Shown here piece by piece: positions 1,406 through 33,533 of a stretch of 35,640 nt of DNA. The translations under genes and the position numbers were made by a program. The DNA is from Microcaldota archaeon (GTDB lineage Archaea; Micrarchaeota; Micrarchaeia; Anstonellales; J096): assembly GCA_027024255.1 (NCBI GenBank), contig JALVSQ010000025.1:1-35640 (forward strand). Reading direction: 5' to 3'. Below the pieces are notes generated by a model. The model did not search any database and was not told the origin of the DNA. It saw only the letters and a list, made by a program, of their open reading frames with translations. Within the stretch, counting starts at the first letter, position 1. Each line of letters starts with the position of its first letter.

Positions 1406-2425
1406 TCACCTTCCTGGAGGGATAACCCTGCTGTAAACATCTAAAGGGTTTTCCTCTTCCACTCTGTTCCAAGCAACTTTTTCAAACTCAAAACCTGCAA
1501 AGGCTAAATACTGAGCATAAGCCTCAAAACCCGCATAATTACCTGTCCTTATCCAGACTTCCTTATCCTTCTCTGCCACATTGCTGTTCATAACATGCTC
1601 CACATTCCTTTTCAGCTCAACTATAGGTTCTCCTGAATCAACTTCATAAGTTAAATGATGAACTGTAGCACCAACAACAGGCAGCTTCAACCTGACAGCA
1701 TCACTTGTAGGTGTATTTCCAGGTAGAACGAACTCGCCTTTTAAGAGAGCAGGATGGGAGTTTATGACATTACCCTTAATAGGTGAAACATCATCTATTA
1801 TCAAACCAAGATAAAACATGGCTCTATCTGAAAGCAAGACATCTATGCTATTTCTCTCTAACTCAGATATTATCCTCTTCTCAAATACCATCTTATCTGA
1901 TAAGACGCTTAAAAGGCTCTCTCTAAGCTGGCCGTTGAGTCTTCCCTGCTTCACCATCCTTATACCAGTATAAAGGTCAAGTCCTGCCCTTTTCATTTCC
2001 TTACTTATGCGCACGACCTTTCTTCTCCATCCCAGTGAGTAGAGCTCAACAAAAGGAACTTTAAATTCCTCTGCTAAATCCCTGTAAGCTTCCAGTGAGG
2101 TAAGTAGAGAAGGATATCTTCGAGTTTGGAGGAGTAAATGCTCTCTGTTCATTGCCTTTATGTCCAGGATAATTAAACCTGCCTTAACATCTCCGAGCAA
2201 TTCCAAAAGAGGTAAAAGAAAATAGATATTGCCCGGTAAGAAACCTGAAAAAGATGTGTTGTTCAATCTCTTAAGGGCATCCTTTGCCCTTTGACTTATT
2301 ATGCTAACCACTCTTTTTTCCATTCTTTCTGTATTTCTCTCCAACTCCTGCATAAAGTACCTTGAACTTATAGGTTCTTCCCTTGCAACCTCGTGCAGTG
2401 TGGTAATCACAGCTATCTTTCTCAT
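1406..2425 (-). CDS. Formyltransferase-fold protein (PurN/Fmt-like)
   Basis: INSHPALLKGEFVLPGNTPTSDAVRLKLPVVGATVHHLTYEVDSGEPI resembles the formyl_trans_N active-site region (N-H-D type catalytic residues). Confidence 0.6.
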   Translation of the reverse strand: MRKIAVITTLHEVAREEPISSRYFMQELERNTERMEKRVVSIISQRAKDALKRLNNTSFSGFLPGNIYFLLPLLELLGDVKAGLIILDIKAMNREHLLLQTRRYPSLLTSLEAYRDLAEEFKVPFVELYSLGWRRKVVRISKEMKRAGLDLYTGIRMVKQGRLNGQLRESLLSVLSDKMVFEKRIISELERNSIDVLLSDRAMFYLGLIIDDVSPIKGNVINSHPALLKGEFVLPGNTPTSDAVRLKLPVVGATVHHLTYEVDSGEPIVELKRNVEHVMNSNVAEKDKEVWIRTGNYAGFEAYAQYLAFAGFEFEKVAWNRVEEENPLDVYSRVIPPGR

Positions 2426-2519
2426 GAACTATGTATTCATTTTGAAATATTTAAATATATTTTAAAAAATTTTATGAAAGTTGGTAAGATTTATAAATAT
2501 TTTTTAATTAAACATCCCT

Positions 2520-3143
2520 ATGTCATTAAAAGATGAAGTAGCAATGATTGTTGAATCAAAGCCCTGCATAAGAATTGCCCTGGCTGAAGGATTAATAAAT
2601 TACTCTGCCTTGGCAAAATACATAAAGGAAGAGGTTGAAGCTGAACTTGGTAAAAAGGTTTCAGAAGGGAGTGTGATGCTGGCAATAAGGGAAATTCATT
2701 TAAAACAGGGTAAAGGCAGTGATGTAATTAAAGCGCTGAAGACATCTTACTACACGATTGAATCAAACCTTATAGATTACGTGGTTGACTGGTCCCTGGA
2801 ATCTGTTAAAAAATTGTTTGAAAAAATAGCTAAGGAGGATGTTCTGCTCAGCATAATTGTTGGTAAGATGTACGCATCCATCATCACCCATCAAAACATA
2901 GATGATTATCTTGATGAAATAGGGATAAAGCCCATCAAAAAGATTGAGAATCTTGCCAATTTTAGAGTAGTTATAAAAAAAGAGTACATAAGTTCAGTAG
3001 GTATAATTGAGGAGATTATTAGAAAGCTCGTTTTACACAATATATCGATAGTGGAAACTGCCTCATCATTTACAGAGATAGGATTCATTATAAGAGAAGA
3101 GGATGTTATAAAGGCCGTCAACGCTTATAAATCACTTGTGTGA
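2520..3143 (+). CDS. Conserved archaeal hypothetical protein, possible regulatory (ACT-like) C-terminal domain
   Basis: 207-aa ORF; TTTATAAATATT TATA-like box ~25 nt upstream of ATG (leaderless). Ends 12 nt inside the convergent aminotransferase gene. Confidence 0.6.
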   Translation: MSLKDEVAMIVESKPCIRIALAEGLINYSALAKYIKEEVEAELGKKVSEGSVMLAIREIHLKQGKGSDVIKALKTSYYTIESNLIDYVVDWSLESVKKLFEKIAKEDVLLSIIVGKMYASIITHQNIDDYLDEIGIKPIKKIENLANFRVVIKKEYISSVGIIEEIIRKLVLHNISIVETASSFTEIGFIIREEDVIKAVNAYKSLV

Positions 3144-4334
3144 ATTCACAAATTCCTCAATCTTATCCATTGCTTCATTGATTACGCTTTCAGGAGGAAG
3201 GTAAACAGTTCTTATATGGTCCTTTCCATACTTTCCAAATCCTGAACCAAAGACTGTCAAAACACCTGTTTCTCTGAGCAAAGAATAAACAAAATCCCTA
3301 TCATCTTTCCATGCTTTAAGAACAGAAAAATCAAGCCTGGGGAACATGTAAAAGGCTCCTTTTGGCTTCACAACTGAAAAACCGTTGATTTCATTAAACC
3401 TCTTTACCATTAAATCTCTCCTCTTTTTGTACTTTTCATTTATGCCCTTAAAGTAAAGAGGTTCTTTTAACATGAGCTTTTTAGCTGCTTTTTGAACAGG
3501 TAAAACAGGACAAAGCCTTGCTCTTGCCATCTTTGCCACTGCATTCTTGAACTCCATAACCTTTTCATCCGGATTGGCAATATACATGTAACCCATTCTC
3601 CATCCTGTTGCTAAATAAGATTTGGAAATGCCATTCAACCCAATCACAGGATAATCCTTAACTATGGCTGATGTGCTTTTGAAAGAGCCTTCAAGAACAT
3701 TGTGGTCATAAATTTCATCACTGAAAAGCAGGAGGTTGTGCTCCTTAGCTATATCTGCAATCTCCTTTATTGTTTTTTCATCGTAAACAGCTCCTGTCGG
3801 ATTATTGGGATTTATAATAACAATGCCAACTGTCTTTTCTGTAATCTTTGACCTTATATCATCTATATCAGGCTGCCACCCATCGCTCTCATCACATCTG
3901 TATTCAACAGGCCTTCCTCCAAAGAGTTTGGGATAAGAAGTGTAAATAGGATAAGAAGGCCCTGGAATAAGCAATTCCTCCCCGTTCTGGAATAAAGCAG
4001 CACTTATCATCAAAAATACCTCTGAAACTCCGTTGCCTACTATTATAGTCTCAGGGTCTATGCTTATGTTGTTAAATGCCTTTTCCCTGTAGCTTATCGC
4101 CTGCCCGACATCTTCCTCTCCTAAGGAATCGCCGTAGTAATTGAATCCATCTTTTATTGCCTCAACCATATACTCTTTAAGCTCCTCAGGAACATCAAAA
4201 TCGTACTTTAATGGGTCACCTATGTTTAAGGGAATTATTTTCCTGCCTGCTTTCTCAACCTTCTTAGCCTCAACAACAACATCCCTTATTGCATACTCTA
4301 ACTCATGTATTCTTGGCGTTAATTTAGAGAACAT
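3132..4334 (-). CDS. Class I/II aminotransferase (PLP-dependent, alanine/aspartate type)
   Basis: NPNNPTGAVYDEKTIKEIADIAKEH, SDEIYDH, NGISKSYLATGWRMGY (PLP lysine). Start MFSKLTPRIHELE at 4334 with TATA-like gtttttaaac ~25 nt upstream; the N-terminal extension in the ORF track is translated tRNA/repeat. Confidence 0.9.
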   Translation of the reverse strand: MFSKLTPRIHELEYAIRDVVVEAKKVEKAGRKIIPLNIGDPLKYDFDVPEELKEYMVEAIKDGFNYYGDSLGEEDVGQAISYREKAFNNISIDPETIIVGNGVSEVFLMISAALFQNGEELLIPGPSYPIYTSYPKLFGGRPVEYRCDESDGWQPDIDDIRSKITEKTVGIVIINPNNPTGAVYDEKTIKEIADIAKEHNLLLFSDEIYDHNVLEGSFKSTSAIVKDYPVIGLNGISKSYLATGWRMGYMYIANPDEKVMEFKNAVAKMARARLCPVLPVQKAAKKLMLKEPLYFKGINEKYKKRRDLMVKRFNEINGFSVVKPKGAFYMFPRLDFSVLKAWKDDRDFVYSLLRETGVLTVFGSGFGKYGKDHIRTVYLPPESVINEAMDKIEEFVNSHK

Positions 4335-4402
4335 GGGTAAATGTTTGTTTGAATGTTTAAAAACAAAATGTTTGAGGATAAGGCAAATAACGGAGTTGCT
4401 TT

Positions 4403-4438
4403 CTGTTATCTTACTGTTCTCAAATCTACGAGGAAAAG
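4403..4438 (-). repeat. Remnant of a type-A tRNA-trailer repeat (head only)
   Basis: Reverse complement CTTTTCCTCGTAGATTTGAGAACAGTAAGATAACAG matches the head of the 32063 element nearly exactly, then similarity stops. Confidence 0.8.
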
Positions 4439-4537
4439 CGGGCCCGGAGGGATTTGCCCCTCTTCTCGGGTTCAAATCTTCCAACCTTCGGTTGGAGCCT
4501 CCTGTTTCTAGGAGAACATGAATACCCGAAAAATAGA
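4439..4537 (-). repeat. tRNA-trailer repeat element, type-B head, 99 nt, ending in a copy of the tRNA-Arg 3' end
   Basis: Minus strand: TCTATTTTTCGGGTATTCATGTTCTCCTAGAAACAGGAGGCTCCAACCGAAGGTTGGAAGATTTGAACCCGAGAAGAGGGGCAAATCCCTCCGGGCCCG. The last 18 nt are identical to the tRNA 3' end at 4538-4555. Confidence 0.9.
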
Positions 4538-4612
4538 CGGGCCCGGAGGGATTTGAACCCTCGACCTCCGCCTTAGGAGGGCGTCGCTCTATCCAAGCTG
4601 AGCTACGGGCCC
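4538..4612 (-). tRNA. tRNA-Arg (CCT)
   Basis: GGGCCCG-TA-GCTC..GAGC-..CTCCTAA..-GAGGG TTCAAAT CCCTC-CGGGCCC-G cloverleaf; CCA not encoded. Confidence 0.93.
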
Positions 4613-4669
4613 CATAAATAAGAATGAGTGTTAAGTTTTTATAGATAATGTTCAACTATTTTAAATGTT

Positions 4670-6040
4670 ATGATAGGTGTGAGTTTTCAAGATGCAATAC
4701 TTAGCCCAGCTCCTCTTACATTCATAGTTTTAGGATTTTTCATAGGTCTTTTCTCCACCATCATTTACTACTTTTACTCAAAAATCATAGGAGATGCCAC
4801 AATCACTCAAAAAGCTTCCAATACTTTAAAGCAGGTTGTTGAAGGAGTGGGTATAATAGCAATACTTCTTATAGGCAACTCATTTTTCCAGCAAACGCTT
4901 GCCCTGTTAACAGGTGTCCCAAGTGCTATTCAGGTAGGTGATGCATTTCACATAAAGTTAGCCGATATTGCTTTATCATCATTTGCTTCAATGCTTGAGT
5001 TGGCCTACATTGTTATGTATTCAATTGACTTTGTTCTTGTGTTCTTTTACGGTGCAAGCTTAACCCTCCAGTTTGCAGAGGTAGGCATAGGTCCATCAAT
5101 AACGCTTATGCCTTTGATTGGTTTAGATGATATAATTAACCTGCACAATATGCTTTCAAACCAGCTTGTTTTAATTATAGCAATGGTTTATGCCAGAAAA
5201 CTCCTTCTGGAAGTTGCTGTGGCGATGCTTTATGTTATGCTACCCATAGGCCTCTTTCTCAGGTTTATTCCAATAACAAGGAAAACAGGTTCAAGCATTA
5301 TTGCCCTGTTCTTGGCAGTTTATTATGTCTTTCCTCTCAGCGTTCTCTTCTCAGATTATATTGCTTATGGGCCTGAAGGCTATAGGATGATAGATTACAG
5401 TTCATTTTCAAATGCCGGTTATTTAAAACCCTACTTTGCCCAGTACGTTAAATCAGTTGTGACAAGAACACCAACATCTGTTGGTGGAATTGTTGACATA
5501 GGGGAGGCTCCTGATATAGGTCTTGAAGCACAAAAAAATGAATTTGAGAATGATTATAATGTTATGAAGGAAACAGATCAGGACGCTGCAAAAAGGAGCG
5601 ATGAGGAGATTTTGAGTGGAAATGCACCCCTCAGTACATTCAGCTTTACAACACCTATAACAAGCACAGGAGGTGTTATGAAGTCATTTATAAAGAAATT
5701 GAAGCTTTCAACCATTATAGAGGCTGCCCTGGGTTTACTCTCATTACTCGCTCACAAGGTACTGGGCTGGGCTGCTAAAAAATCAGTCATAGGGGCTTTA
5801 GCCTACTTTCTCCTTAAAGTAGTTCCTTTCATTTACCTGCTCATTAAATACAATCCCTTTGTTGTAACAATTGATTTTATGGGTTTAATATTGAGAGAGT
5901 TATTTATGATAGGCCAGCTCTACGCAGTTTCGCTTGTGGCTTTATTGCTTGAAATAACATTCACAGTCACGATGTACAGGCAGTTCGGCATGCTTCTTGG
6001 AGGGGAGGTAACCCTTCTTGGCCTGACAAAGGTGATATAG
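4670..6040 (+). CDS. Polytopic membrane protein, paralog 1 of 6 (VirB6/CedA-like candidate)
   Basis: Multiple TM segments; motif LPIGLFLRFIPITRKTGSSIIALFLAVYYVFP; C-terminus GGEVTLLGLTKVI. TATA-like TTTTTATAG ~27 nt upstream. Confidence 0.85.
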   Translation: MIGVSFQDAILSPAPLTFIVLGFFIGLFSTIIYYFYSKIIGDATITQKASNTLKQVVEGVGIIAILLIGNSFFQQTLALLTGVPSAIQVGDAFHIKLADIALSSFASMLELAYIVMYSIDFVLVFFYGASLTLQFAEVGIGPSITLMPLIGLDDIINLHNMLSNQLVLIIAMVYARKLLLEVAVAMLYVMLPIGLFLRFIPITRKTGSSIIALFLAVYYVFPLSVLFSDYIAYGPEGYRMIDYSSFSNAGYLKPYFAQYVKSVVTRTPTSVGGIVDIGEAPDIGLEAQKNEFENDYNVMKETDQDAAKRSDEEILSGNAPLSTFSFTTPITSTGGVMKSFIKKLKLSTIIEAALGLLSLLAHKVLGWAAKKSVIGALAYFLLKVVPFIYLLIKYNPFVVTIDFMGLILRELFMIGQLYAVSLVALLLEITFTVTMYRQFGMLLGGEVTLLGLTKVI

Positions 6041-7044
6041 TGATTCCATTGCTCAACATGTATGTAGGAGTTGCATTTATGGTCATGATTATAGCTATAG
6101 CTATTGCTAAGACGGCGGGTAAAGCCATGAGTAAGCCGGATATAGAGGCATGGGCAAATGTTGAATTCAGCTCTTTATTAATAACTGCCCTGATATATGG
6201 CATTATACTTGCTTTTTATTCAGCATTGGAAGGAATAGCAATGGCATGGACAGGCTCATCACTTCCTCTGGCTAAGTTTTCCATGAATATTTTAGGAGGT
6301 TTGCTCGGAAAAACAGGTCAAACATGGTTGGAGGTTACATCTATAGAGCATCAATTAAAGATATTTGAAGGAGCTACAGAATCCATAGGGCCCGGAATGC
6401 TTAACTGGCAGTGGAAGCTCTTCCCTGGAATGACACTATATGTTAAGGCAATGGATACTGTAATGCTTGTTCTGCTTACTGCCTTCACCAGCTTGAAGGC
6501 TCAGATTATAGGTCTTGATATAATAACCGTCCTTTCATACAACATATTTTTACCACTTGGCTTAATATTCAGAATATTTCCTCCTGTAAGAAATGCAGGT
6601 AATGAGTTAATTGCCATCTCAATATCATTTGGAATACTCATTCCATTCTTTTATGTCGTTACATTCAAGGCAATGGCTGATATTGAAGAGCAATTTGGGG
6701 TTAATGGTATGGTCTCATCTGTTGTGAATAGAGCAGGCTCACTTTCAATGGTTGAAGGCGAAACAGCAGAGATAGCTCAAAAGATGGTGAAGATTTACAA
6801 TACAGGTGTTATGTTTGGAATAGCAAGCTTTGCTCCAAAGACAGCAAGCCTGTTTTCATATCTCCATCCAATGATAATGACAGGGCTCACACCTTTACTT
6901 TTAAGATTATTTTCATTGATGGGTGTTGTTATAGCCGCCTCAGTGCTTATTCCATCGTTCAGCCTTGCACTGGCACTGGCATTTGTCAGGGCAATTGTTG
7001 ATGTACTTGATTTCAAACCAACTGCTGTGGGAGTGTTGATATAA
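6040..7044 (+). CDS. Polytopic membrane protein, paralog 2 of 6
   Basis: GTG start overlapping upstream stop; motif LPLGLIFRIFPPVRNAGNELIAISISFGILIP. Confidence 0.82.
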   Translation: MIPLLNMYVGVAFMVMIIAIAIAKTAGKAMSKPDIEAWANVEFSSLLITALIYGIILAFYSALEGIAMAWTGSSLPLAKFSMNILGGLLGKTGQTWLEVTSIEHQLKIFEGATESIGPGMLNWQWKLFPGMTLYVKAMDTVMLVLLTAFTSLKAQIIGLDIITVLSYNIFLPLGLIFRIFPPVRNAGNELIAISISFGILIPFFYVVTFKAMADIEEQFGVNGMVSSVVNRAGSLSMVEGETAEIAQKMVKIYNTGVMFGIASFAPKTASLFSYLHPMIMTGLTPLLLRLFSLMGVVIAASVLIPSFSLALALAFVRAIVDVLDFKPTAVGVLI

Positions 7045-8270
7045 TGCTTTCATATCAAATAGCCTTTAAGGTTGCTTTAAGCGTTATGGCTCCTGCGTTT
7101 GCTATAGGTGTAATGTTAATTAGCTTAGCCTACATGCTCGGCAAACTCCTTCAAAAAGAGGACTGGATTGCATGGGCAAAGACAGAGATAGTTGAATTAA
7201 TTGTTGTAAGCATAATCCCATTTTCAGTTGCGTTCCTCTCATTAATTGCATCTCAAGTCGTTTCCCAGATAGATTACAAAGGCTCAACTATATACTGCCA
7301 GGGCAATATTCCTGAATGTCACATAGTTGTGGCAGGCAGCTATTTTGAAAACATGTTGAGAGAGATATTGACACTTTACCAGGGCCTGGTCAAGCTAACA
7401 CTGATTCCAAAAATGCTCGAAGGAGCAAGCGTTGAATTGACCCATAGGGCAACTATTACAGAATCTGCTGGCAATGTGTTTGCCATGCTAACTCCCTTCA
7501 ACATTATCGTCAGAAAATTCTGCGATTTTCTTAGAATATCAGCAGCAATCGTTGCATTTCAATACTTCTTTGTTGCATTGATTGTTCAGATATTCCCTCA
7601 CCTTCTATTTTTAGGTCTTGTTCTCAGAGTCCTCCCATTCACCAGAAAATTAGGTGGTCTAATACTCGCAATTGCGTTGGTTTTTTATTACTTTTATCCT
7701 GTTCTTGTTTCTTTGCTGGATGCCGTGTACTGGCAGTTGCCTAAAAACCCGGATACAGAAGGAAGAATAAACAGATTATCCTTAGCAGGTATAAAAGTTA
7801 AGGTGCCTGTTAAAGGACCTGGTGGAGATATAATATATCAGGATATTGATATCTCAAAGGTCACATCTAAAAATATCGACTACACAGAGTTCGGAAAGAA
7901 GGAAAAAGAGGTAAGAGAAGAAGCTAATAAGGTAAGTAATGCTGGAAGTAAGGCATGGGAGTTCTTTAAAAAGAATGTGCTTGGCTGGCTTAAAAATATG
8001 GTTGTAGGATTCATGGCATGGGTCTGGAATGTTATTAAGTTTGGCACAGTTACACTTGCACTTGTTATGGGCACTCCTTTAATAAGTGCATCAACATTTT
8101 TATGGGGGCCACCTTTCTTGGATGGAGTAATGAGCATGATAGCTGATGTGGTTGTTATGAATGTGCTTATGGCCTGGATTATACTTATTGCATGTATAGG
8201 AGCCGTAAAATCTTTATCTCCTGTCCTGGGAGGTGACACAGAGATAGGTGGTTTGAGCCACTTGATATAA
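7044..8270 (+). CDS. Polytopic membrane protein, paralog 3 of 6
   Basis: TAATG overlap with upstream gene; motif LFLGLVLRVLPFTRKLGGLILAIALVFYYFYP; C-terminus GGDTEIGGLSHLI. Confidence 0.85.
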   Translation: MLSYQIAFKVALSVMAPAFAIGVMLISLAYMLGKLLQKEDWIAWAKTEIVELIVVSIIPFSVAFLSLIASQVVSQIDYKGSTIYCQGNIPECHIVVAGSYFENMLREILTLYQGLVKLTLIPKMLEGASVELTHRATITESAGNVFAMLTPFNIIVRKFCDFLRISAAIVAFQYFFVALIVQIFPHLLFLGLVLRVLPFTRKLGGLILAIALVFYYFYPVLVSLLDAVYWQLPKNPDTEGRINRLSLAGIKVKVPVKGPGGDIIYQDIDISKVTSKNIDYTEFGKKEKEVREEANKVSNAGSKAWEFFKKNVLGWLKNMVVGFMAWVWNVIKFGTVTLALVMGTPLISASTFLWGPPFLDGVMSMIADVVVMNVLMAWIILIACIGAVKSLSPVLGGDTEIGGLSHLI

Positions 8271-8279
8271 GGTGAAATA

Positions 8280-9506
8280 ATGAAAAAAATATTGATGTTT
8301 GTTTTGATTGTTTGCCTGCTCAATATATCTTTTTCCAGTATAAAGGATGAAGTAAACAAGCAGTTTGAGATAATGGAGGAAGTTAGCAGGGAAATGACTG
8401 ATGCTGTTTTCACAGGCAGTTGCGGAGTGGGCACAACATCTGCTGTGCTTAAAGATTACTTAATAAATTCTTTTTTGGCCATATTCATATCCCTGCTTAT
8501 ATCAGTGCTTTCTTACTATGCTGTTAAAGTTGTAGGCCAAACAAACATAAATCCTTCATCAATTTTAGCAATGAAAGTACAGGACACAATAGTAACTGTG
8601 TTGATAGTTATTATATTTGGAGGCATGTTTATGGCAGTGGGAGGCACAAACTACGGTTTTCTCAGAAACTCTATGGAGTTTACAAGAGAGCTTGTGTTTG
8701 AAGCCTCAACCTACATAATGTTTTTGAGCTTCTTAAATACAGGTATTGTTTTATTATCCCAGCTTGCAGTGCCTCTGCCCTTTAATGCAGACTATGTGTT
8801 TTCAGTTACAATAAACTTTCAACAGGCAGTAAAGCCCTTGATAGATGCCAGCTTCACAATAGCAAACTTCTACAGCCTTTTACTCTCTGAATGGGTTGGT
8901 AAGTTCTTTGTTCTTTGCTTCATGAGGTTTTATGCCTATCCTGTTCTAATTCCTCTGGGAGTTCTCCTCAGGAGCTTTAACTTTACCAAGGGAGCCGGCA
9001 ATGCACTCATAGCCATAACCCTCTCCTTCTTCTTTGTTTATCCTGTAATGCTCTCATTTAACTATGCTCTCTACAAATCAACAATAGGAAAGCTTTCTTT
9101 GAGGAAGCTATCTCCTGTTAAGATAGCAATGGACTATGTAGGGCCTATTATAATATATGTGACAAGTGTTAATATTGCTACCAAAGTATTCTCCAAACTT
9201 TTCGGTCCAAAAACAGCTCCAAACTGGATAAAGAAGCTCCTTTACACGTCTTCAGGTGCTCTCAAAGGATTTGGTCTATTTGCAGGCTTAGCAGCAAGGT
9301 CTTTTCAGCTGGTTGTTTTGATAGGGGGCTTAATGATGATAACTGTGTTTGTTACAAAGATACTTATTCAATCTGTTAACCTAATTGTTGTTTACAGCTT
9401 TCTTTTAACTGCTTTAAATGTTTATGTTACTCTTGTATTAGCTCAGGAAATATCAAGGCATTTAGGAACAGAGCTTGAATTGAGTGCATTTACGAGGGTG
9501 TTATGA
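8280..9506 (+). CDS. Polytopic membrane protein, paralog 4 of 6 (N-terminal signal-like segment)
   Basis: GGTG SD; motif IPLGVLLRSFNFTKGAGNALIAITLSFFFVYP; C-terminus GTELELSAFTRVL. Confidence 0.85.
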   Translation: MKKILMFVLIVCLLNISFSSIKDEVNKQFEIMEEVSREMTDAVFTGSCGVGTTSAVLKDYLINSFLAIFISLLISVLSYYAVKVVGQTNINPSSILAMKVQDTIVTVLIVIIFGGMFMAVGGTNYGFLRNSMEFTRELVFEASTYIMFLSFLNTGIVLLSQLAVPLPFNADYVFSVTINFQQAVKPLIDASFTIANFYSLLLSEWVGKFFVLCFMRFYAYPVLIPLGVLLRSFNFTKGAGNALIAITLSFFFVYPVMLSFNYALYKSTIGKLSLRKLSPVKIAMDYVGPIIIYVTSVNIATKVFSKLFGPKTAPNWIKKLLYTSSGALKGFGLFAGLAARSFQLVVLIGGLMMITVFVTKILIQSVNLIVVYSFLLTALNVYVTLVLAQEISRHLGTELELSAFTRVL

Positions 9507-10675
9507 TGAACATATTCCAGTATATAATGCAAAAGTTCGTGAACTTCGGATTGCCTTTGCCCATTGAGTCGTTAATGGCAACCCATGTTTGTCCAGCTGT
9601 TTTGTTTCCTTCAAGCGTTATGATGCCTATTCTTTTAGCAATGGGAGCAAGCCTTTTCCTCATTGTTTTTATTTATATGATGGCCAAAATATTTGGATTG
9701 AAGAACTGGGAGCTCTATGCGAAATCAGAGCTTGTTGAGTTATTCTTAACAACTGTACTTATACTTTTAGTTGTTTATCCCATAATAAAGATACTGTGCG
9801 GTGTGGACATCACAGGAGATGGCAGTATATTCCAAACAGGAAAGTACTATTTTTATGAAGTGACTGTAAATGCTGAGATTGCTGGAACAGTTATTCAGTT
9901 CTTCTATACTTTATTCTCAGCTATTGCTTATACTTCCATCACTGAAGCAGTTTTTGCAGGTATCAGAGGTGGCAGACCATTTGAAGGTATATTCTCAACA
10001 ATAAAGCCTTTCTTCTCAAACATTGCCTTAGGAGTCGGATTGAGCATAAGCCTTAATGCTGCTTTCACATACCTTTACGAGTTTGTTACTTACGGATTTT
10101 TCAAGTACCTTTTACCAATAGGGCTCGTAGCAAGAGCATTTACACCAACAAGAAAGATAGGGGGAACAATCATAGGGTTAACGCTTGGCATGATCATATT
10201 TATTCCTTTGCTTTTCTCTATCGGGCATTTGGTTAATAAGAGCCTTGCCCCAATCTACATAACAAGAGGAGGTTCTGTTGTTATAAACCCATCTTACTAT
10301 GGCGTGCTGGGTTTGCTAACAACTCAGGTAAGTTCCTATGGCGAGTTAGTTCAGGCACTGCATGATGTGCTGGCAAAGGGCCATTACGATGTTAGAAGTC
10401 CTACTGACCCGAACAATCCGTCAGAACCAAATAAAACATACGGCCATATTGATGAGCAGTTAGGCAATCTAAGCATCATGTTTAAAGTCGTTATTGCTTT
10501 AATATTTGCAGTTCTTGTGCTGGTTGGTCCTTACATAAAGATGGCTGTCTTTGGCATATTCGCCAGCATGCTTTTCCCTGTTATAATGAGCATCATAGCT
10601 GTTGCAGGTGTTAAGTTCATTTCAGGTGTATTTGGACAGGAACTAGATGTAACAAATTTGACGAGGTTGATATGA
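9503..10675 (+). CDS. Polytopic membrane protein, paralog 5 of 6
   Basis: Start overlaps upstream stop; motif LPIGLVARAFTPTRKIGGTIIGLTLGMIIFIP; C-terminus GQELDVTNLTRLI. Confidence 0.85.
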   Translation: MMNIFQYIMQKFVNFGLPLPIESLMATHVCPAVLFPSSVMMPILLAMGASLFLIVFIYMMAKIFGLKNWELYAKSELVELFLTTVLILLVVYPIIKILCGVDITGDGSIFQTGKYYFYEVTVNAEIAGTVIQFFYTLFSAIAYTSITEAVFAGIRGGRPFEGIFSTIKPFFSNIALGVGLSISLNAAFTYLYEFVTYGFFKYLLPIGLVARAFTPTRKIGGTIIGLTLGMIIFIPLLFSIGHLVNKSLAPIYITRGGSVVINPSYYGVLGLLTTQVSSYGELVQALHDVLAKGHYDVRSPTDPNNPSEPNKTYGHIDEQLGNLSIMFKVVIALIFAVLVLVGPYIKMAVFGIFASMLFPVIMSIIAVAGVKFISGVFGQELDVTNLTRLI

Positions 10676-11691
10676 TGGAGGACTGGGAAGGATATGCAAT
10701 TCTGCTTTCGATGATGGAGATTGCAGTTGCAGTTCTGCTTTACTACTTTTCAAAACTCCTGCAGTTTGGAAAGTATGAGGTGTTTGCAAAGGAGTTTTTA
10801 ATTGAAAGTGTTTTGACTCTGTTTCTTGTAATAGGCATATTCTTAATAATTGAGATAGGCAATGAGTTTGGAAAGGAATTAAATCAAAGGATATCCTCTT
10901 CCTTCAAGAATGCCAATGAAATATTTAAGGAGCATCCTGTTAGAGGTAAAGAAGATGTATCATGGTATGCAGTACTTTTAACAATGTATGTAAGCAATTC
11001 ATGTTTGAGACCTTTTTACGAGATGACATTCTTTCTAACTCAAATATCTGCCCTTTCAAAAGGAGTTGTCCTTGTTAGTGATTCATTCAGGTCCCTGGGA
11101 AGTAATGCTGACCTTCTCTTTGTCATAAGTCAGAATTTCTTCAACACATTCATGTTTATCTACCTTATGTACTTTGTTTCTATAAAGCTTCTCCTCTTCT
11201 TTAAATATATATTTCCTGTATTCATAATGATAGGCGTTCCTTTAAGGGCATTTGAGCCAACCAGGAGTGCTGGGGCTTATTTAATAGCTGTTGGCCTGGG
11301 TTTTTACTTTGTTTATCCTGCTATCTACCTCCTTCTAATGGCTCAGGGGTACAACAATAATGCTTGCAGTATTCCTGATGCAATTTATCCAGTAATAAAG
11401 TCCTGGAATAACTCTCCAATTGGAAGAATTGGGTTCGCAATGATGAGCATTGTTTCAGGTGTTGTTTTTGGAGCAGTTGCATCAAGCGGGTGGGTAGTCT
11501 CATTCTTAAACAGTGTACTGGGCACTGAGATGTTAGGCACACTCGAAATGAGCATGATTCATACAGTGGTTAATATATGCTTTGTTCCTATAATTGCATT
11601 TTCACTTGCCATGACATTTGTTAACATAGGAACAACAACATTAGGTGGTAGAATTGCCGAAGTTGGTAGAGGTTTGTTCAAGTTTTTATGA
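10672..11691 (+). CDS. Polytopic membrane protein, paralog 6 of 6
   Basis: Start overlaps upstream stop; motif IMIGVPLRAFEPTRSAGAYLIAVGLGFYFVYP. Confidence 0.83.
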   Translation: MMEDWEGYAILLSMMEIAVAVLLYYFSKLLQFGKYEVFAKEFLIESVLTLFLVIGIFLIIEIGNEFGKELNQRISSSFKNANEIFKEHPVRGKEDVSWYAVLLTMYVSNSCLRPFYEMTFFLTQISALSKGVVLVSDSFRSLGSNADLLFVISQNFFNTFMFIYLMYFVSIKLLLFFKYIFPVFIMIGVPLRAFEPTRSAGAYLIAVGLGFYFVYPAIYLLLMAQGYNNNACSIPDAIYPVIKSWNNSPIGRIGFAMMSIVSGVVFGAVASSGWVVSFLNSVLGTEMLGTLEMSMIHTVVNICFVPIIAFSLAMTFVNIGTTTLGGRIAEVGRGLFKFL

Positions 11692-11700
11692 GGTGGTTAA

Positions 11701-12237
11701 ATGAGGTTTGTAGTAGATACAAGTGTTTTTGTGAACCCTGATGTGTATGTGCAGTTTGGTAAGGATGTTGATGAGGCAATAGATGCATTCGTTAAACTTG
11801 CAAAGGCTTCAAAGCACGAGTTTTACATGCCTCCTTCTGTGTTCAAAGAGCTATCTCACTTCAGTAAAAAAACAGATGAATTAGAGTTGGTAGTTAAAAA
11901 AAGAGCACCTAATGTTTACAGCCTTTATGTTCCGGCAGCTGTGCTTTACGATATTGTTTCAGAAGTAAGGAAGAGGATAGATAAAGGCTTAAGAATTGCA
12001 GAAAAGTATGCTGTTGCAGAAGGAACACCCGAGGAAATAAGAAAACTTAGAGAGAGGTACAGGGAAGCTGTGAGGCACGGCATCGTTGATAGCACAGAGG
12101 ACTTAGATGTAGTTCTTTTAGCAAAGGAACTTGACGGAGCTATTGTAAGTGCTGATGAAGGAATTATAAATTTAGCAAATAAGTTAAGTTGCGAATGGAT
12201 AGATGCCAGGAAGTTTAAGAAAATAATCAGTCAGTAA
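11701..12237 (+). CDS. PIN-domain RNA ligase partner protein
   Basis: MRFVVDTSVFVNPDVYVQFG ... VDSTEDLDVVLLAKELDGAIVSADEGIINLA: PIN acidic residues and resemblance to the archaeal 'RNA ligase partner' family; adjacent to the RNA ligase gene. Confidence 0.8.
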   Translation: MRFVVDTSVFVNPDVYVQFGKDVDEAIDAFVKLAKASKHEFYMPPSVFKELSHFSKKTDELELVVKKRAPNVYSLYVPAAVLYDIVSEVRKRIDKGLRIAEKYAVAEGTPEEIRKLRERYREAVRHGIVDSTEDLDVVLLAKELDGAIVSADEGIINLANKLSCEWIDARKFKKIISQ

Positions 12238-13240
12238 ATGGAGTTCCTGTTAGCCAGAGCCTTAGCCTCTTTTCAGTTTTTAAGTATCTTTTCTTAAATA
12301 CAATTTCATAAAATTCTTTCCTTTCAAATATCTCCTCCTCAACCTTTATGTATTTGCTGTTTAAAACATTTTCCTTTAACCACTTCCATGTTTCAAGTTC
12401 CCTTACAAACACCCTGAATGTTTTTTGTATTTTGCCTGTCCTCTCAAACTCCTTCCATTTTTCTGATGCCTTCTTTATGATATTTTTAAAGCCCGGTAGC
12501 TTTCCAAACTCGTTGTAAAAGAAACTTATCCTGAGCAACCGTTCATTAAAAAAGCCAGTAGGCATATCAAACAGGGCAAACAGCATTTCCATGTCCTCAG
12601 CATCTGAATTGGCAGTGACATACTTAAACTGCTTCCTTTTGTTCCTTGCTTTTAACACAATGCCCTCCCTTCCCTCTTTGTTTAACTTTAACAATATTTC
12701 AGTTATTTCATCGTACTTCCTTTTATTAAACAATCCAAAAACTGTCGGAGGGTTCAGGTTGAATTCATCAAGTATTGAGTACCTTTGCTCAGGCATCACA
12801 AAATCATTTTTTTCATTCATTATATCAAAAACAAAGAACCTCACATCATAGTCTTTAACAGGCTCTGTAAAGGGAGTATTACCAATCATCTCTCCACAGA
12901 GTATGTAGCCAGGATACTTTTCAAAGAATTCATCAAGCCCAAGCTCATATGCCTTTTCAGTTGTGAATGGGTCAATTCTTCCACTTCTTGTTAAACCAAA
13001 CACACTTCCGTTGTGGTAAAAGAACCTTACATTGTAGCCGTCTATTTTTTCCTCTATATAAAACTCCTCATCCCTGAAGTAGTTATCTATTCCCCTTTTT
13101 AAATGCCAGACCCTTGGGATATGAGGATAGCCAGGTATTATTCTATTTCCTATTACAACGGTTCCTCTTTCTAATTTTCCCTGTTTTGAAGTGTATCTTT
13201 TATAACTCAACATTCCCATGAACTTCTCATTTACAATCAT
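12227..13240 (-). CDS. Archaeal ATP-dependent RNA ligase (Rnl3 type)
   Basis: YIEEKIDGYNVRFF (KxDG nucleotidyltransferase motif I), GEMIG, REGIVLKAR. Start set at MIVNEKF (13240). Confidence 0.88.
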   Translation of the reverse strand: MIVNEKFMGMLSYKRYTSKQGKLERGTVVIGNRIIPGYPHIPRVWHLKRGIDNYFRDEEFYIEEKIDGYNVRFFYHNGSVFGLTRSGRIDPFTTEKAYELGLDEFFEKYPGYILCGEMIGNTPFTEPVKDYDVRFFVFDIMNEKNDFVMPEQRYSILDEFNLNPPTVFGLFNKRKYDEITEILLKLNKEGREGIVLKARNKRKQFKYVTANSDAEDMEMLFALFDMPTGFFNERLLRISFFYNEFGKLPGFKNIIKKASEKWKEFERTGKIQKTFRVFVRELETWKWLKENVLNSKYIKVEEEIFERKEFYEIVFKKRYLKTEKRLRLWLTGTPFTD

Positions 13241-13292
13241 GATTAAAATTACATTCTCAACTTTTAAATATTTATATTTCCAATTAAGACTT

Positions 13293-13973
13293 ATGGGGAA
13301 AAAATGGGGACAGCACTTCATAGCCCCTTCATTAGCTAAATACATTGCTTCATTTGGCTATGGAAAGGTTCTTGAAATAGGCGCAGGTGATGGAAGGATA
13401 ACAAAACATATTAATGCAGATGAAGTATGGGCTGTTGAAATTGATAAGAGGTTCTGCGAAAAATTGTTAAAGTTAGATGTGCATGTTATATGCAAGGATT
13501 TTTTGAAAGTAAAGCCTTTTGAAGTAGATGTTATATTGGGGAGTATTCCTTACTACATAAGCTCCCGGATAGTGTTTAAACTTAGAGAATGGATTTTTAA
13601 GGAGGCTTATCTTGTTCTGCAGTATGAATTTGCTAAGAAGATGTGCGCAAAGCCAGGCCAGAGCAATTACGGCAGGCTTTCAGTCACATCTCAGCTCTTT
13701 TATGATGTTAAGTTTATAAGGAAAATATCAAAGCATTTATTTACACCAATGCCAGATGTGGATTCTGCTTTAATCAAAATAACAAAAAAAGAAAACAATG
13801 TTTCAGATGAACTATTAGAGTTAATAAGGCTCTTGTTCAGCCATAAAAATAAAAAAATTAAGAATATACTTGATAAATGTCCTGAGGAGTTATGCAACAA
13901 AAGACCGAGGCACATGAGCATTGATGAGATAAAAAGATTACTCTCATTCGTAGGGCCCTTAGATCAGCGGTAG
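13293..13973 (+). CDS. ksgA: rRNA adenine dimethyltransferase KsgA/Dim1
   Basis: MGKKWGQHFI, VLEIGAGDGRIT, GSIPYYISS, YGRLSV. Start at 13293 removes the unlikely upstream extension. Stop lies inside tRNA-Ala. Confidence 0.9.
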   Translation: MGKKWGQHFIAPSLAKYIASFGYGKVLEIGAGDGRITKHINADEVWAVEIDKRFCEKLLKLDVHVICKDFLKVKPFEVDVILGSIPYYISSRIVFKLREWIFKEAYLVLQYEFAKKMCAKPGQSNYGRLSVTSQLFYDVKFIRKISKHLFTPMPDVDSALIKITKKENNVSDELLELIRLLFSHKNKKIKNILDKCPEELCNKRPRHMSIDEIKRLLSFVGPLDQR

Positions 13974-14024
13974 ATCGCTCCCCTCGCACGGGAGAGGCCG
14001 GGGGTTCGAATCCCCCAGGGTCCA
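13953..14024 (+). tRNA. tRNA-Ala (CGC)
   Basis: GGGCCCT..GATC AGCGGTA GATC..CTCCC CTCGCAC GGGAG..GGGGG TTCGAAT CCCCC AGGGTCC A; G3:U70 present. Confidence 0.95.
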
Positions 14025-14124
14025 TTCATTATCGTAGATTTGAGAACAGTAAGATAACGGGAGGCTCCAACCGAAGGTTGGAAGATTCGAAGCCTCGGAG
14101 GGGGTTCGAATCCCCCAGGGTCCA
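14025..14124 (+). repeat. tRNA-trailer repeat element, type-A head, 100 nt, ending in a copy of the tRNA-Ala 3' end
   Basis: TTCATTATCGTAGATTTGAGAACAGTAAGATAACGGGAGGCTCCAACCGAAGGTTGGAAGATTCGAAGCCTCGGAGGGGGTTCGAATCCCCCAGGGTCCA; last 25 nt identical to 14000-14024. Confidence 0.93.
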
Positions 14125-14171
14125 TCTAATTCCATACAAATAGATTTAAATCAAGAACATCATATTTAACC

Positions 14172-15218
14172 ATGCTAAAAGAAGCATTTCTTTACAAAAG
14201 GCTTGATAAAAAAAAGGTTCAATGCCTTGCCTGCAAGCATAGATGCATAATTCCCGAAGGAAAAACAGGGTTATGTGCAACAAGAGGCAATGAAAATGGC
14301 AGGCTTTACCTCTACACCTATGCATACCCTGCTGCTATAAATCTTGACCCGATAGAGAAAAAACCTCTATTTCACTTCTACCCGGGAACATGGGTTTATT
14401 CACTCGGCACATTCGGATGCAATTTTAGATGCTCTTTCTGCCAGAACTGGGAGTTAAGCCAATTTCCTAAAAAAGAAAGTAAGTTTTACTCTCTCAAAGC
14501 AAAACAACTCATTCAATCAAATTCAACATTCCTACCTCCTCAAAAGGCTGTTGAAAATGCTTTGCATTACAGAGCAGATGGCATTGCTTACACCTACAAT
14601 GAACCAGCCATATGGGCTGAGTATGCTCACGATATTGCAGAGATAGCTAAAAAGCATGGCCTTTTCAATGTTTTTGTTTCCTCAGGATATGAAACAGATG
14701 AAGCCCTTGATTATTTAGATGTGATAGATGCTTACAATGTTGACTTGAAAGCATTTTCAAATGAATTTTATCTCAAGTATTGCGGAACAAAGCTTGACAA
14801 TGTGCTTGACACAATAAAGAGCATTTACAAAAGAAAAAAATGGATTGAGATTACTACATTGGTTATTCCTGGTGAGAACGACAGTGAGGAGCAATTAAAG
14901 GGAATTGCAGAATTTATAAAGAATGAGTTGAGCAAGGATGTGCCCTGGCACATCACCCGCTTTCATCCTGATTATAAAATGCTGGACAAAGAAGTAACTC
15001 CTTTACAAACACTTGAAAAGGCATTCAATATTGGAAAAGAAGCAGGTTTAAACTACATTTACATAGGCAATGTGTTAGGAACTGATAAAGAGACAACATA
15101 TTGCCCGAGATGTGGGAAACCTCTCATAGAAAGGTATGGGTTTAGAATACTAAGCTATCATATAAAAAATGGCAGGTGTGAGTATTGCGGAGCTAAGATA
15201 GCAGGAAAGTTTAGATAG
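14172..15218 (+). CDS. AmmeMemoRadiSam-type radical SAM protein (PFL-activase homolog)
   Basis: CLACKHRCIIPEGKTGLCATRGN; TFGCNFRCSFCQNWELSQ (CxxxCxxC); CPRCGKPL...CEYCGAK zinc ribbon. Confidence 0.88.
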   Translation: MLKEAFLYKRLDKKKVQCLACKHRCIIPEGKTGLCATRGNENGRLYLYTYAYPAAINLDPIEKKPLFHFYPGTWVYSLGTFGCNFRCSFCQNWELSQFPKKESKFYSLKAKQLIQSNSTFLPPQKAVENALHYRADGIAYTYNEPAIWAEYAHDIAEIAKKHGLFNVFVSSGYETDEALDYLDVIDAYNVDLKAFSNEFYLKYCGTKLDNVLDTIKSIYKRKKWIEITTLVIPGENDSEEQLKGIAEFIKNELSKDVPWHITRFHPDYKMLDKEVTPLQTLEKAFNIGKEAGLNYIYIGNVLGTDKETTYCPRCGKPLIERYGFRILSYHIKNGRCEYCGAKIAGKFR

Positions 15219-15828
15219 AAGAGTTAAACAACCTGTAAAGGCTTTCAGCCTCTTTTTTAGGTAGAATTGAGAGTAACTCCTCTTTATCAGCAGAAAACAG
15301 GTCTTTAAGGCTCTTAAATTTCCTCCTTAAAAGCCTCGCCCTTTTTTCTCCAATGCCTGGGAGTGAGGTTAAAACGTTCATTACAGGGTCTTTATACACT
15401 TTTTTGTTAACAAATGAGATTTTTTTACCTAAGCTTCTTTCAATCTTTGCCAATTCATAAATGAGCAGGGCAGTTTCCTTAATCCCATCAGAAAATATAA
15501 TGCTAGCATTAAATTCTACTATTAAAGAACTTATAGCACCTGCTTTTGATTTGTCCATTTCATTGTTCCAGATGTTTCCTTCAATGATAAACACAGGCTT
15601 TTCATAAAACAACCTCATCTTCTCAGCCTGCTTGAACAACCTACCATCGAATATTGAGCTAATAAAATCAAACGAACTTTTTCTCTCCACGACTAACCTA
15701 TCGGAGCAAACAGCATCACCTACAGCAAGCTTTTTTTGAATTACATGAGCATATTGCTTTAATTCATTTGCCAATCTCTCCTCTCCAGCATCAACAATAA
15801 TTGAAAAGTCAAGCAATGTTTGCTTCAT
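15211..15828 (-). CDS. ERCC4/XPF-type nuclease with C-terminal HhH, no helicase domain
   Basis: IIVDAGEERLANEL, LVVERKSSFDFISSIFDGRLFKQ (ERKxxxD), TSLPGIGEKRARLLRRKF HhH. Confidence 0.85.
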   Translation of the reverse strand: MKQTLLDFSIIVDAGEERLANELKQYAHVIQKKLAVGDAVCSDRLVVERKSSFDFISSIFDGRLFKQAEKMRLFYEKPVFIIEGNIWNNEMDKSKAGAISSLIVEFNASIIFSDGIKETALLIYELAKIERSLGKKISFVNKKVYKDPVMNVLTSLPGIGEKRARLLRRKFKSLKDLFSADKEELLSILPKKEAESLYRLFNSSI

Positions 15829-32867: not shown

Positions 32868-33191
32868 TCAAGGTATTACAAAATTGCATCCACCGCTGTA
32901 AGAGCCCCCAACCATTGCTGCTAAAAAGCCTGGTAGAAGGATGATAATGACAATACCTATTATGGCACCTGTAAGCATGTTTGTTGCCCATACATTGGCT
33001 CTTGCCCTTGTCTCTGCACCAAAGAACTGGCCACCTGTATAAACAATTGATGACAAGAGAATCATTAAAACTGCAACCTCTCCTACTATGTTGTAAAGAA
33101 ACTCACAAAACTGCCTTAAAGCCACCTGTAAGTTTGTTGCCTGAGCAAATATAAGGCTTATAAAAAATAAAGCAATGAGTAGCCTCTTCAT
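32868..33191 (-). CDS. VirB2/TrbC-like pilin candidate, copy 2
   Basis: Signal peptide, two TM segments, GGQFFGAETRARANVWATNMLTGAIIGIVIIILLPGFL. Confidence 0.7.
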   Translation of the reverse strand: MKRLLIALFFISLIFAQATNLQVALRQFCEFLYNIVGEVAVLMILLSSIVYTGGQFFGAETRARANVWATNMLTGAIIGIVIIILLPGFLAAMVGGSYSGGCNFVIP

Positions 33192-33197
33192 GAAACC

Positions 33198-33533
33198 TCA
33201 CTCACAGACATGTTCTAAATCCAGATTTGGGTCAATTTGACTGAGCAAATAGGGAACAACAAGAACAACAATTATGGCAATCACTGAATATATAATCATG
33301 TTTGTTGCCCATACATTGGCTCTTGACCTCGTCTCTGCTCCTAAGACCTGGCCAGCTGCAAACACAACACCTGCAAGGACTATCACGGCAAGTATTATCA
33401 CAGGCAATAAATCTTTTAGCATACCGTACACATTGCAAATGCCCTCTCTTATCCTCTCTCCAGCATCAGCACTCAACGAAACAGATAAAAACACAAGTAA
33501 TGCAAATGCGAGCATTCCCATTTTCTTCATCAA
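33198..33533 (-). CDS. VirB2/TrbC-like pilin candidate, copy 1
   Basis: Signal peptide, two TM segments, AGQVLGAETRSRANVWATNMIIYSVIAIIVVLVVPYLL. Confidence 0.7.
   Translation of the reverse strand: MMKKMGMLAFALLVFLSVSLSADAGERIREGICNVYGMLKDLLPVIILAVIVLAGVVFAAGQVLGAETRSRANVWATNMIIYSVIAIIVVLVVPYLLSQIDPNLDLEHVCE

Follow-up and report, generated by a model that had tools for sequence, protein, structure and literature searches.

Six consecutive genes, W1-W6, in a 35,640-nucleotide (nt) stretch of a micrarchaeal genome (contig JALVSQ010000025.1, positions 1-35,640, called the window below) encode diverged polytopic membrane proteins that probably fill the VirB6/CedA slot of a chromosomal transfer machine across Micrarchaeota, one that resembles Ced and the type IV secretion systems (T4SSs). 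Nearly the whole phylum appears to bear this machine, with pilin and CedB-like ATPase genes next to it; it is a concrete candidate for DNA exchange or cell contact in small, often host-dependent archaea. The published Ced and Ted systems come from Crenarchaeota (PMC9905601), and we found no report of such a machine in Micrarchaeota in the open-access literature. As a fixed set beside pilin and motor genes, W1-W6 probably constitute the membrane base of a pilus-type machine.

The six genes are packed as an operon of overlapping or near-abutting reading frames (Table 1). The frames are exactly those that the first-pass annotation had described as tandem paralogs at 4670-11691. W1/W2 and W2/W3 overlap by 1 nt, and W4/W5 and W5/W6 overlap by 4 nt; the overlapping stop and start codons claimed for the whole array therefore occur at four of the five junctions, and W3/W4 are separated by a 9-nt gap. 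The W proteins contain an N-terminal K/E segment (hhYhhSKhhx...AKxExxE) and a central motif (LPhGhhhRxFxPTRxxGxxhIA...P), both of which had been noticed at first reading. Met1 aside, R198, G207 and P222 (W1 numbering) are invariant in all 12 paralogs of an alignment that combines W1-W6 with six more paralogs from the same genome. The C-terminal element G.(E/D)h...L(T/S).hh, earlier assigned to several of the six, is present in W1 and W3-W5. W4 has an additional hydrophobic, signal-like segment at its N-terminus. When the six ortholog families were compared by hhalign, all 15 pairs scored 99.0-99.9% probability (E 5e-18 to 2e-34), and the control comparison of unrelated multi-transmembrane (multi-TM) families with the VirB6 profile gave noise-level scores. 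Chance likeness is thereby excluded, and W1-W6 are, on their sequences, true and mutually homologous paralogs. They belong to no described family in our searches: Pfam gave no match to W1-W6 at E<=1, NCBIfam gave none at E<=0.01 to W1, W3-W6 and the single W of other operons, and profiles of W5 and W6 found no matching sequence in the PDB.

Table 1. Coordinates of the W operon, its neighbor and the candidate machine genes (window positions unless a locus is given; aa, amino acids)
Feature	Location	Strand	Product	Remarks
W1	4670..6040	+	456 aa polytopic subunit 1	PTR motif LPIGLFLRFIPITRKTGSSIIA; position-1 orthologs across Micrarchaeota
W2	6040..7044	+	334 aa subunit 2	motif LPLGLIFRIFPPVRNAGNELIA
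W3	7044..8270	+	408 aa subunit 3	motif LFLGLVLRVLPFTRKLGGLILA
W4	8280..9506	+	408 aa subunit 4	motif IPLGVLLRSFNFTKGAGNALIA
W5	9503..10675	+	390 aa subunit 5	motifs LPIGLVARAFTPTRKIGGTIIG ... GQELDVTNLTRLI
W6	10672..11691	+	339 aa subunit 6	motif IMIGVPLRAFEPTRSAGAYLIA
PIN_5 nuclease	11701..12237	+		9 nt 3' of W6; PF08745 1.6e-54
VirB2-like pilin	32868..33191	-	107 aa	PF18895 T4SS_pilin 4.7e-6, over cut-off
VirB2-like pilin	33198..33533	-	111 aa	PF18895 0.0012 and TrbC/VirB2 0.0016, both under cut-off
B3, ATPase, x136, x232, x809 operon	L015 (G000:C50) 1756-7746		B3 297 aa, ATPase 520 aa, x136 136 aa (two TMs), x232 232 aa, x809 809 aa (two TMs)	window's genome

Gene context and co-occurrence connect the W proteins to a pilin and an ATPase. 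The genomes sampled are mostly metagenome-assembled, and f-numbers (f12, f13, f17 and so on) denote families within this Micrarchaeota sample. In f17, one operon runs pilin(s), W1-W6, B3, B3, the ATPase B4 (~510 aa), x136, x232 and x809. In f12 and f13, a minimal operon contains a pilin, a single W, B3 and B4, and a separate second operon contains six W genes, B3, B3 and B4. Some genomes of the window's order combine a single W with B3, B4 and x232, with a pilin in one of four such loci. Immediately 5' of W1 in f17, and of the single W in f12/f13, are genes for homologous pilins. A pilin and a VirB4/CedB-class ATPase, the two companions that mark a Ced/T4SS-like system, are encoded with the platform gene, and this neighborhood recurs in several Micrarchaeota families. 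In gene order, the C50 operon of the window's genome (B3, B4, x136, x232, x809) corresponds to the right-hand part of the f17 operon, and W1-W6 to the left-hand part. Across 296 genomes, the W family and B3 are both present in 254, both absent in 36 and discordant in 6 (290/296 concordant; the tally was made by hand from match tables, and its Fisher value of 1e-39 disregards shared ancestry). The split between presence and absence inside f21 and f13 argues against ancestry as the sole source of the link. W and B3 are both absent throughout the samples of f16, f18, f20, f23 and f25 and from most of f21, and their loss may track lifestyle. Several families without them have rather large genomes (1.2-1.4 Mb).

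The pilin genes predicted at 32868-33533 are real, and the PF18895 cut-off is passed only by the first of the two; the operon-linked pilins of other genomes match weakly (0.0086-0.049). Two more T4SS_pilin-like matches below the cut-off lie on contig C36 (L018 4679-4999 and G000:C36:15100-15273). An ATPase of VirB4/CedB type is encoded in the window's genome, on C50, so that the chief refutation named in the first-pass annotation, a genome without such an ATPase, does not apply. Among 18950 NCBIfam models, its best match is CedB (NF041017; 1.6e-22, 79.8 bits), with models of CedD, VirB4-like conjugal ATPases and HerA ranking next, and CedB or CedD is also the best model for the ATPases of distant W operons. 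Matches to Pfam DUF87, AAA_10 (6.8e-13) and P-loop_TraG (1.1e-9) and to the VirB4-like PDB entry 4ag5 (7.6e-7) agree with this placement. All NCBIfam scores fall under the equivalog cut-offs, which assigns the protein to the CedB/VirB4 class and not to CedB itself. B3, whose gene precedes that of the ATPase, combines two hydrophobic helices with a cytosolic domain; its position and layout make it a candidate equivalent of VirB3 or the VirB4 N-terminal domain. x809 has two TM helices and a large external part, with no family match. Just 3' of one minimal single-W operon, a ~700-aa second HerA/VirB4-like ATPase is encoded (L180:3579-5669), and proteins of similar size occupy that slot in several other f12/f13 loci, including L170-L175; it is a candidate equivalent of CedD or of a coupling protein.

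The set of six is strikingly constant. A W6-family match is present in 259 of the 296 Micrarchaeota genomes and a W5 match in 83 of the 84 genomes of the window's order; where named, the records that bear a W6-type gene are nearly all Candidatus Micrarchaeota. Complete multi-W clusters, counted over the window, the second operon, named loci and fetched regions (these loci were chosen partly by a W6 motif), contain exactly six genes in 43 of 46 cases, five in two and seven in one; the remaining seven complete clusters are single-W minimal operons. The order W1-W6 is retained in the named loci. In a tree of 123 W proteins, the nearest neighbor outside the protein's own cluster occupies the same operon position in 120. 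Position-2 proteins fall into one clade without exception (20/20, support 0.90) and position-6 proteins nearly so (19/20, support 0.91); the position-1 and position-4 clades are less clean. This position-wise orthology indicates that all six parts were already in place before the sampled Micrarchaeota families diverged and before the duplication that gave a second six-gene operon. That second operon lies on contig C3 of the window's genome (L005, G000:C3:32000-51900; genes 8174-15500) and is found in other genomes of the order as well. In the region around it (L005 4091-19216), a 1239-aa Cys-rich secreted protein is encoded downstream of the operon, and a 1322-aa protein with a signal, one TM helix and a long cytosolic part is encoded 5' of the operon on the opposite strand. 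Other genomes of the order have one-TM proteins of 856-1640 aa in the downstream slot.

The predicted architecture is compatible with a VirB6-like role. Topology assigned by the positive-inside rule and the W6 model (predicted local distance difference test 75, predicted template modeling score 0.70; all predicted structures are monomers) give some five hydrophobic helices and place a large central region outside, which is the VirB6-type layout (topology models in PMC2653234). The helix order matches the hydrophobic pattern of R388 VirB6, in which helices 1, 2 and 5-7 of seven long helices are hydrophobic (PMC9259494). Each W protein would start outside, cross the membrane with TM1, form a K-rich cytosolic turn, return through TM2 and expose the central region; TM3 and TM4 would follow, joined by the cytosolic R..F.PTR turn, and an external loop would lead to TM5 and a C-terminus in the cytosol.

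Several results weigh against our assignment. PF04610 (TrbL/VirB6) does not match W1-W6 at E<=1, and a TrbL profile search of the window's genome found nothing at E<=10. Profiles of W1-W6, the single W and a pan-W set, aligned with 13 VirB6 sequences of mating-pair formation type T (MPF_T; a small and one-sided plasmid sample), reached at most 1.8% probability, within the range of control and shuffled comparisons. The Trp that follows a TM-cytoplasmic motif and is invariant in VirB6 (PMC2653234) is absent from the W families, which read PTRxxGxxhIA where TrwI has PTHRFFDQW. Foldseek with the W6 and single-W models returned no PDB structure at E<=0.001. The ATPase fails the strict CedB equivalog test (79.8 bits against a 700-bit cut-off), and B3 matches neither R388 VirB3 nor VirB4. 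The W, ATPase and pilin genes occupy separate loci in the window's genome, our locus sample is biased towards W-type operons, and known VirB6 rings are homopentamers, not heterohexamers (PMC9259494). A VirB6 chain, 8rt9_F, appeared for one model only at E=3.4, in a comparison of monomer models with few deposited chains, and viral structures gave no match to the single-W model at E<=0.001. The pNOB8 conjugation proteins likewise gave no match. The best local hhalign alignment paired the PTR turn of W5 and the pan-W set with the PTHR turn of VirB6; it was rejected as evidence of homology because shuffled and reversed controls score about as high. The lack of a W-VirB6 match is nevertheless weak evidence, because TedA and CedA are also without BLAST-level similarity to each other (PMC9905601). 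Of the first-pass proposal, a chromosomal T4SS/Ced-like apparatus in which the W proteins take the VirB6/CedA slot has strong support from operon context and co-occurrence. A direct VirB6 relationship is not supported, with no TrbL, profile or PDB fold match and no conserved Trp. The W proteins likely work like VirB6/CedA, and their identity with VirB6 by homology is unproven.

The invariant set of six is a good reason to expect a hetero-oligomer. We tentatively propose, as a possibility somewhat short of an even one, an obligate hetero-hexamer in which every paralog occurs once, matched to a six-fold ATPase. Its gene set would have arisen once, before the families split, and the entire operon would later have been duplicated, so that cells of the window's order have two machines. 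One copy of each W would form a pseudo-sixfold ring in a single membrane, seated on the hexameric ATPase. Docking would use conserved Arg-rich cytosolic turns, with the R..F.PTR turns and the K-rich loop facing B3 and the ATPase. The external W parts would form the pilus base where pilin polymerizes, the ring would gate the substrate (DNA as in Ced, or protein) across the single membrane, and ATP hydrolysis would power pilin insertion and substrate passage. All of this, from the ring and its stoichiometry to the docking surface and the nature of the substrate, is inference. Six non-interchangeable paralogs probably act here where bacteria use copies of one protein. If so, they provide a natural experiment on T4SS symmetry: in R388, a five-fold VirB6 ring lies above a six-fold ATPase (PMC9259494), and a six-part ring would abolish this mismatch.

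The substrate is the point on which an alternative comes closest. The machine could deliver proteins to a host cell, or attach to it, in place of a Ced-like exchange of DNA, and we lean only slightly away from this. In its favor, the second six-gene operon is followed by genes for very large secreted proteins, and epibiotic growth of Patescibacteria depends on their T4SS (PMC12102498). However, the ATPase is nearest to CedB and CedD, which move DNA, and the examined loci show no consistent link to an effector, a relaxase or a DNA-processing gene.

The six proteins might also be VirB6-like without forming a joint hetero-oligomer, either as separate homo-oligomers or as subsets, each with its own pilin, substrate or partner. 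The minimal operons of f12/f13 and of part of the window's order make do with one W, which presumably means that a platform can be built from one type of subunit; the bacterial VirB6 ring consists of five identical subunits (PMC9259494), and several pilins are encoded per genome. Alternative platforms, however, would be expected to differ in number, whereas six genes and their order are fixed over a very deep divergence, no stable four- or five-gene version occurs in the sample, and the W genes are tightly packed. We regard separate platforms as unlikely.

Equally improbable, in our view, is that a membrane complex of other descent, the W proteins, was recruited to a HerA/VirB4-type ATPase and small pilin-like membrane proteins, so that their VirB6 likeness is topological convergence in a new kind of machine. 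No sequence or fold search relates them to VirB6/TrbL, and no family convincingly matches B3, x136, x232 or x809. VirB8-VirB11 were not seen (VirB8, VirB9 and VirB10 were not searched by name). The only relaxase family searched, PF03432, gave a single 14.6-bit match that crosses stops, against a cut-off of 24.6, in the window's genome (91% complete). Yet the pilin scores over the T4SS_pilin cut-off, CedB/VirB4 are the closest relatives of the ATPase, and a pilin, a polytopic protein and a VirB4-like ATPase are the gene content of Ced and Ted (PMC9905601), whose own TedA and CedA show no BLAST-level similarity to each other. That W1-W6 are six ordinary permease or transporter paralogs is highly improbable: each is polytopic with ~5 TM helices, but they match no transporter family, no unrelated transporter or permease fold, the other refutation named in the first-pass annotation, was found for the two models by Foldseek at E<=0.001, and they share operons with a pilin and a VirB4-like ATPase.

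The PIN_5 nuclease follows the W operon in most named loci and is a conserved operon neighbor, probably outside the machine. Together with an RNA-ligase-like gene (12227-13345, minus strand; labeled by resemblance only), it adjoins the W operon in many Micrarchaeota (window 11701-13345). On the other side, the aminotransferase reading frame called at 3132-4655 (minus strand) runs through tRNA-Arg at 4538-4612, and its start is therefore probably near 4334. The translation at ~4440-4505 resembles a second tRNA-like remnant, which ARAGORN does not call.

Among known systems, the Ced system of Sulfolobales (CedA, CedA1, CedA2 and CedB, with the paralogs CedD and CedE; PMC9905601, PMC11868833) shares with the W machine a chromosomal location, a VirB2-like pilin, a polytopic VirB6-like protein and a CedB/VirB4-class ATPase, and itself has neither relaxase nor outer-membrane complex. 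It differs in having one or two platform paralogs where the W machine has six obligate ones; the ATPase of the latter also scores far under the CedB cut-off and is accompanied by conserved B3 (two TMs), x136, x232 and x809. The Ted system of Thermoproteales (TedA, TedB, TedC; PMC9905601) follows the same three-part logic with a single TedA in another phylum, and TedA was linked to CedA by profile comparison only (PMC9905601). We liken the W proteins to CedA and TedA by their descriptions, not by sequence comparison. R388 TrwI (PMC9259494) resembles them in its hydrophobic helices 1-2, soluble middle and hydrophobic helices 5-7 and in a PT(R/H) turn between two hydrophobic helices, but no profile or fold similarity was detected, the Trp is missing in W, and TrwI forms a homopentamer in place of six different subunits. 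Patescibacterial T4SSs (PMC12102498) are likewise phylum-wide and chromosomal, in ultrasmall hosts with reduced genomes, and have a strongly diverged VirB6; they are bacterial, with an MPF_FATA-related VirB4 and no six-fold VirB6. The nanohaloarchaeal SPEARE proteins (giant VirB4/TraG-domain proteins; PMC10266531) also place a VirB4-type ATPase in a DPANN lineage, with a proposed role in host interaction, but fuse the ATPase domain to giant adhesin-like proteins, and no six-paralog platform is reported for them. The nearest precedents for the six paralogs are CedA with CedE, a five-TM CedA paralog for which a CedA-CedE hetero-oligomer has been suggested (PMC11868833), and, in Rickettsia, a group of five VirB6 genes (PMC2653234). 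The latter, rvhB6a-e of Rickettsiales, are also tandem, diverged VirB6-type genes retained together, but number five (four arrayed in relatives) and have large extensions, recognizable TrbL/VirB6 domains and the Trp.

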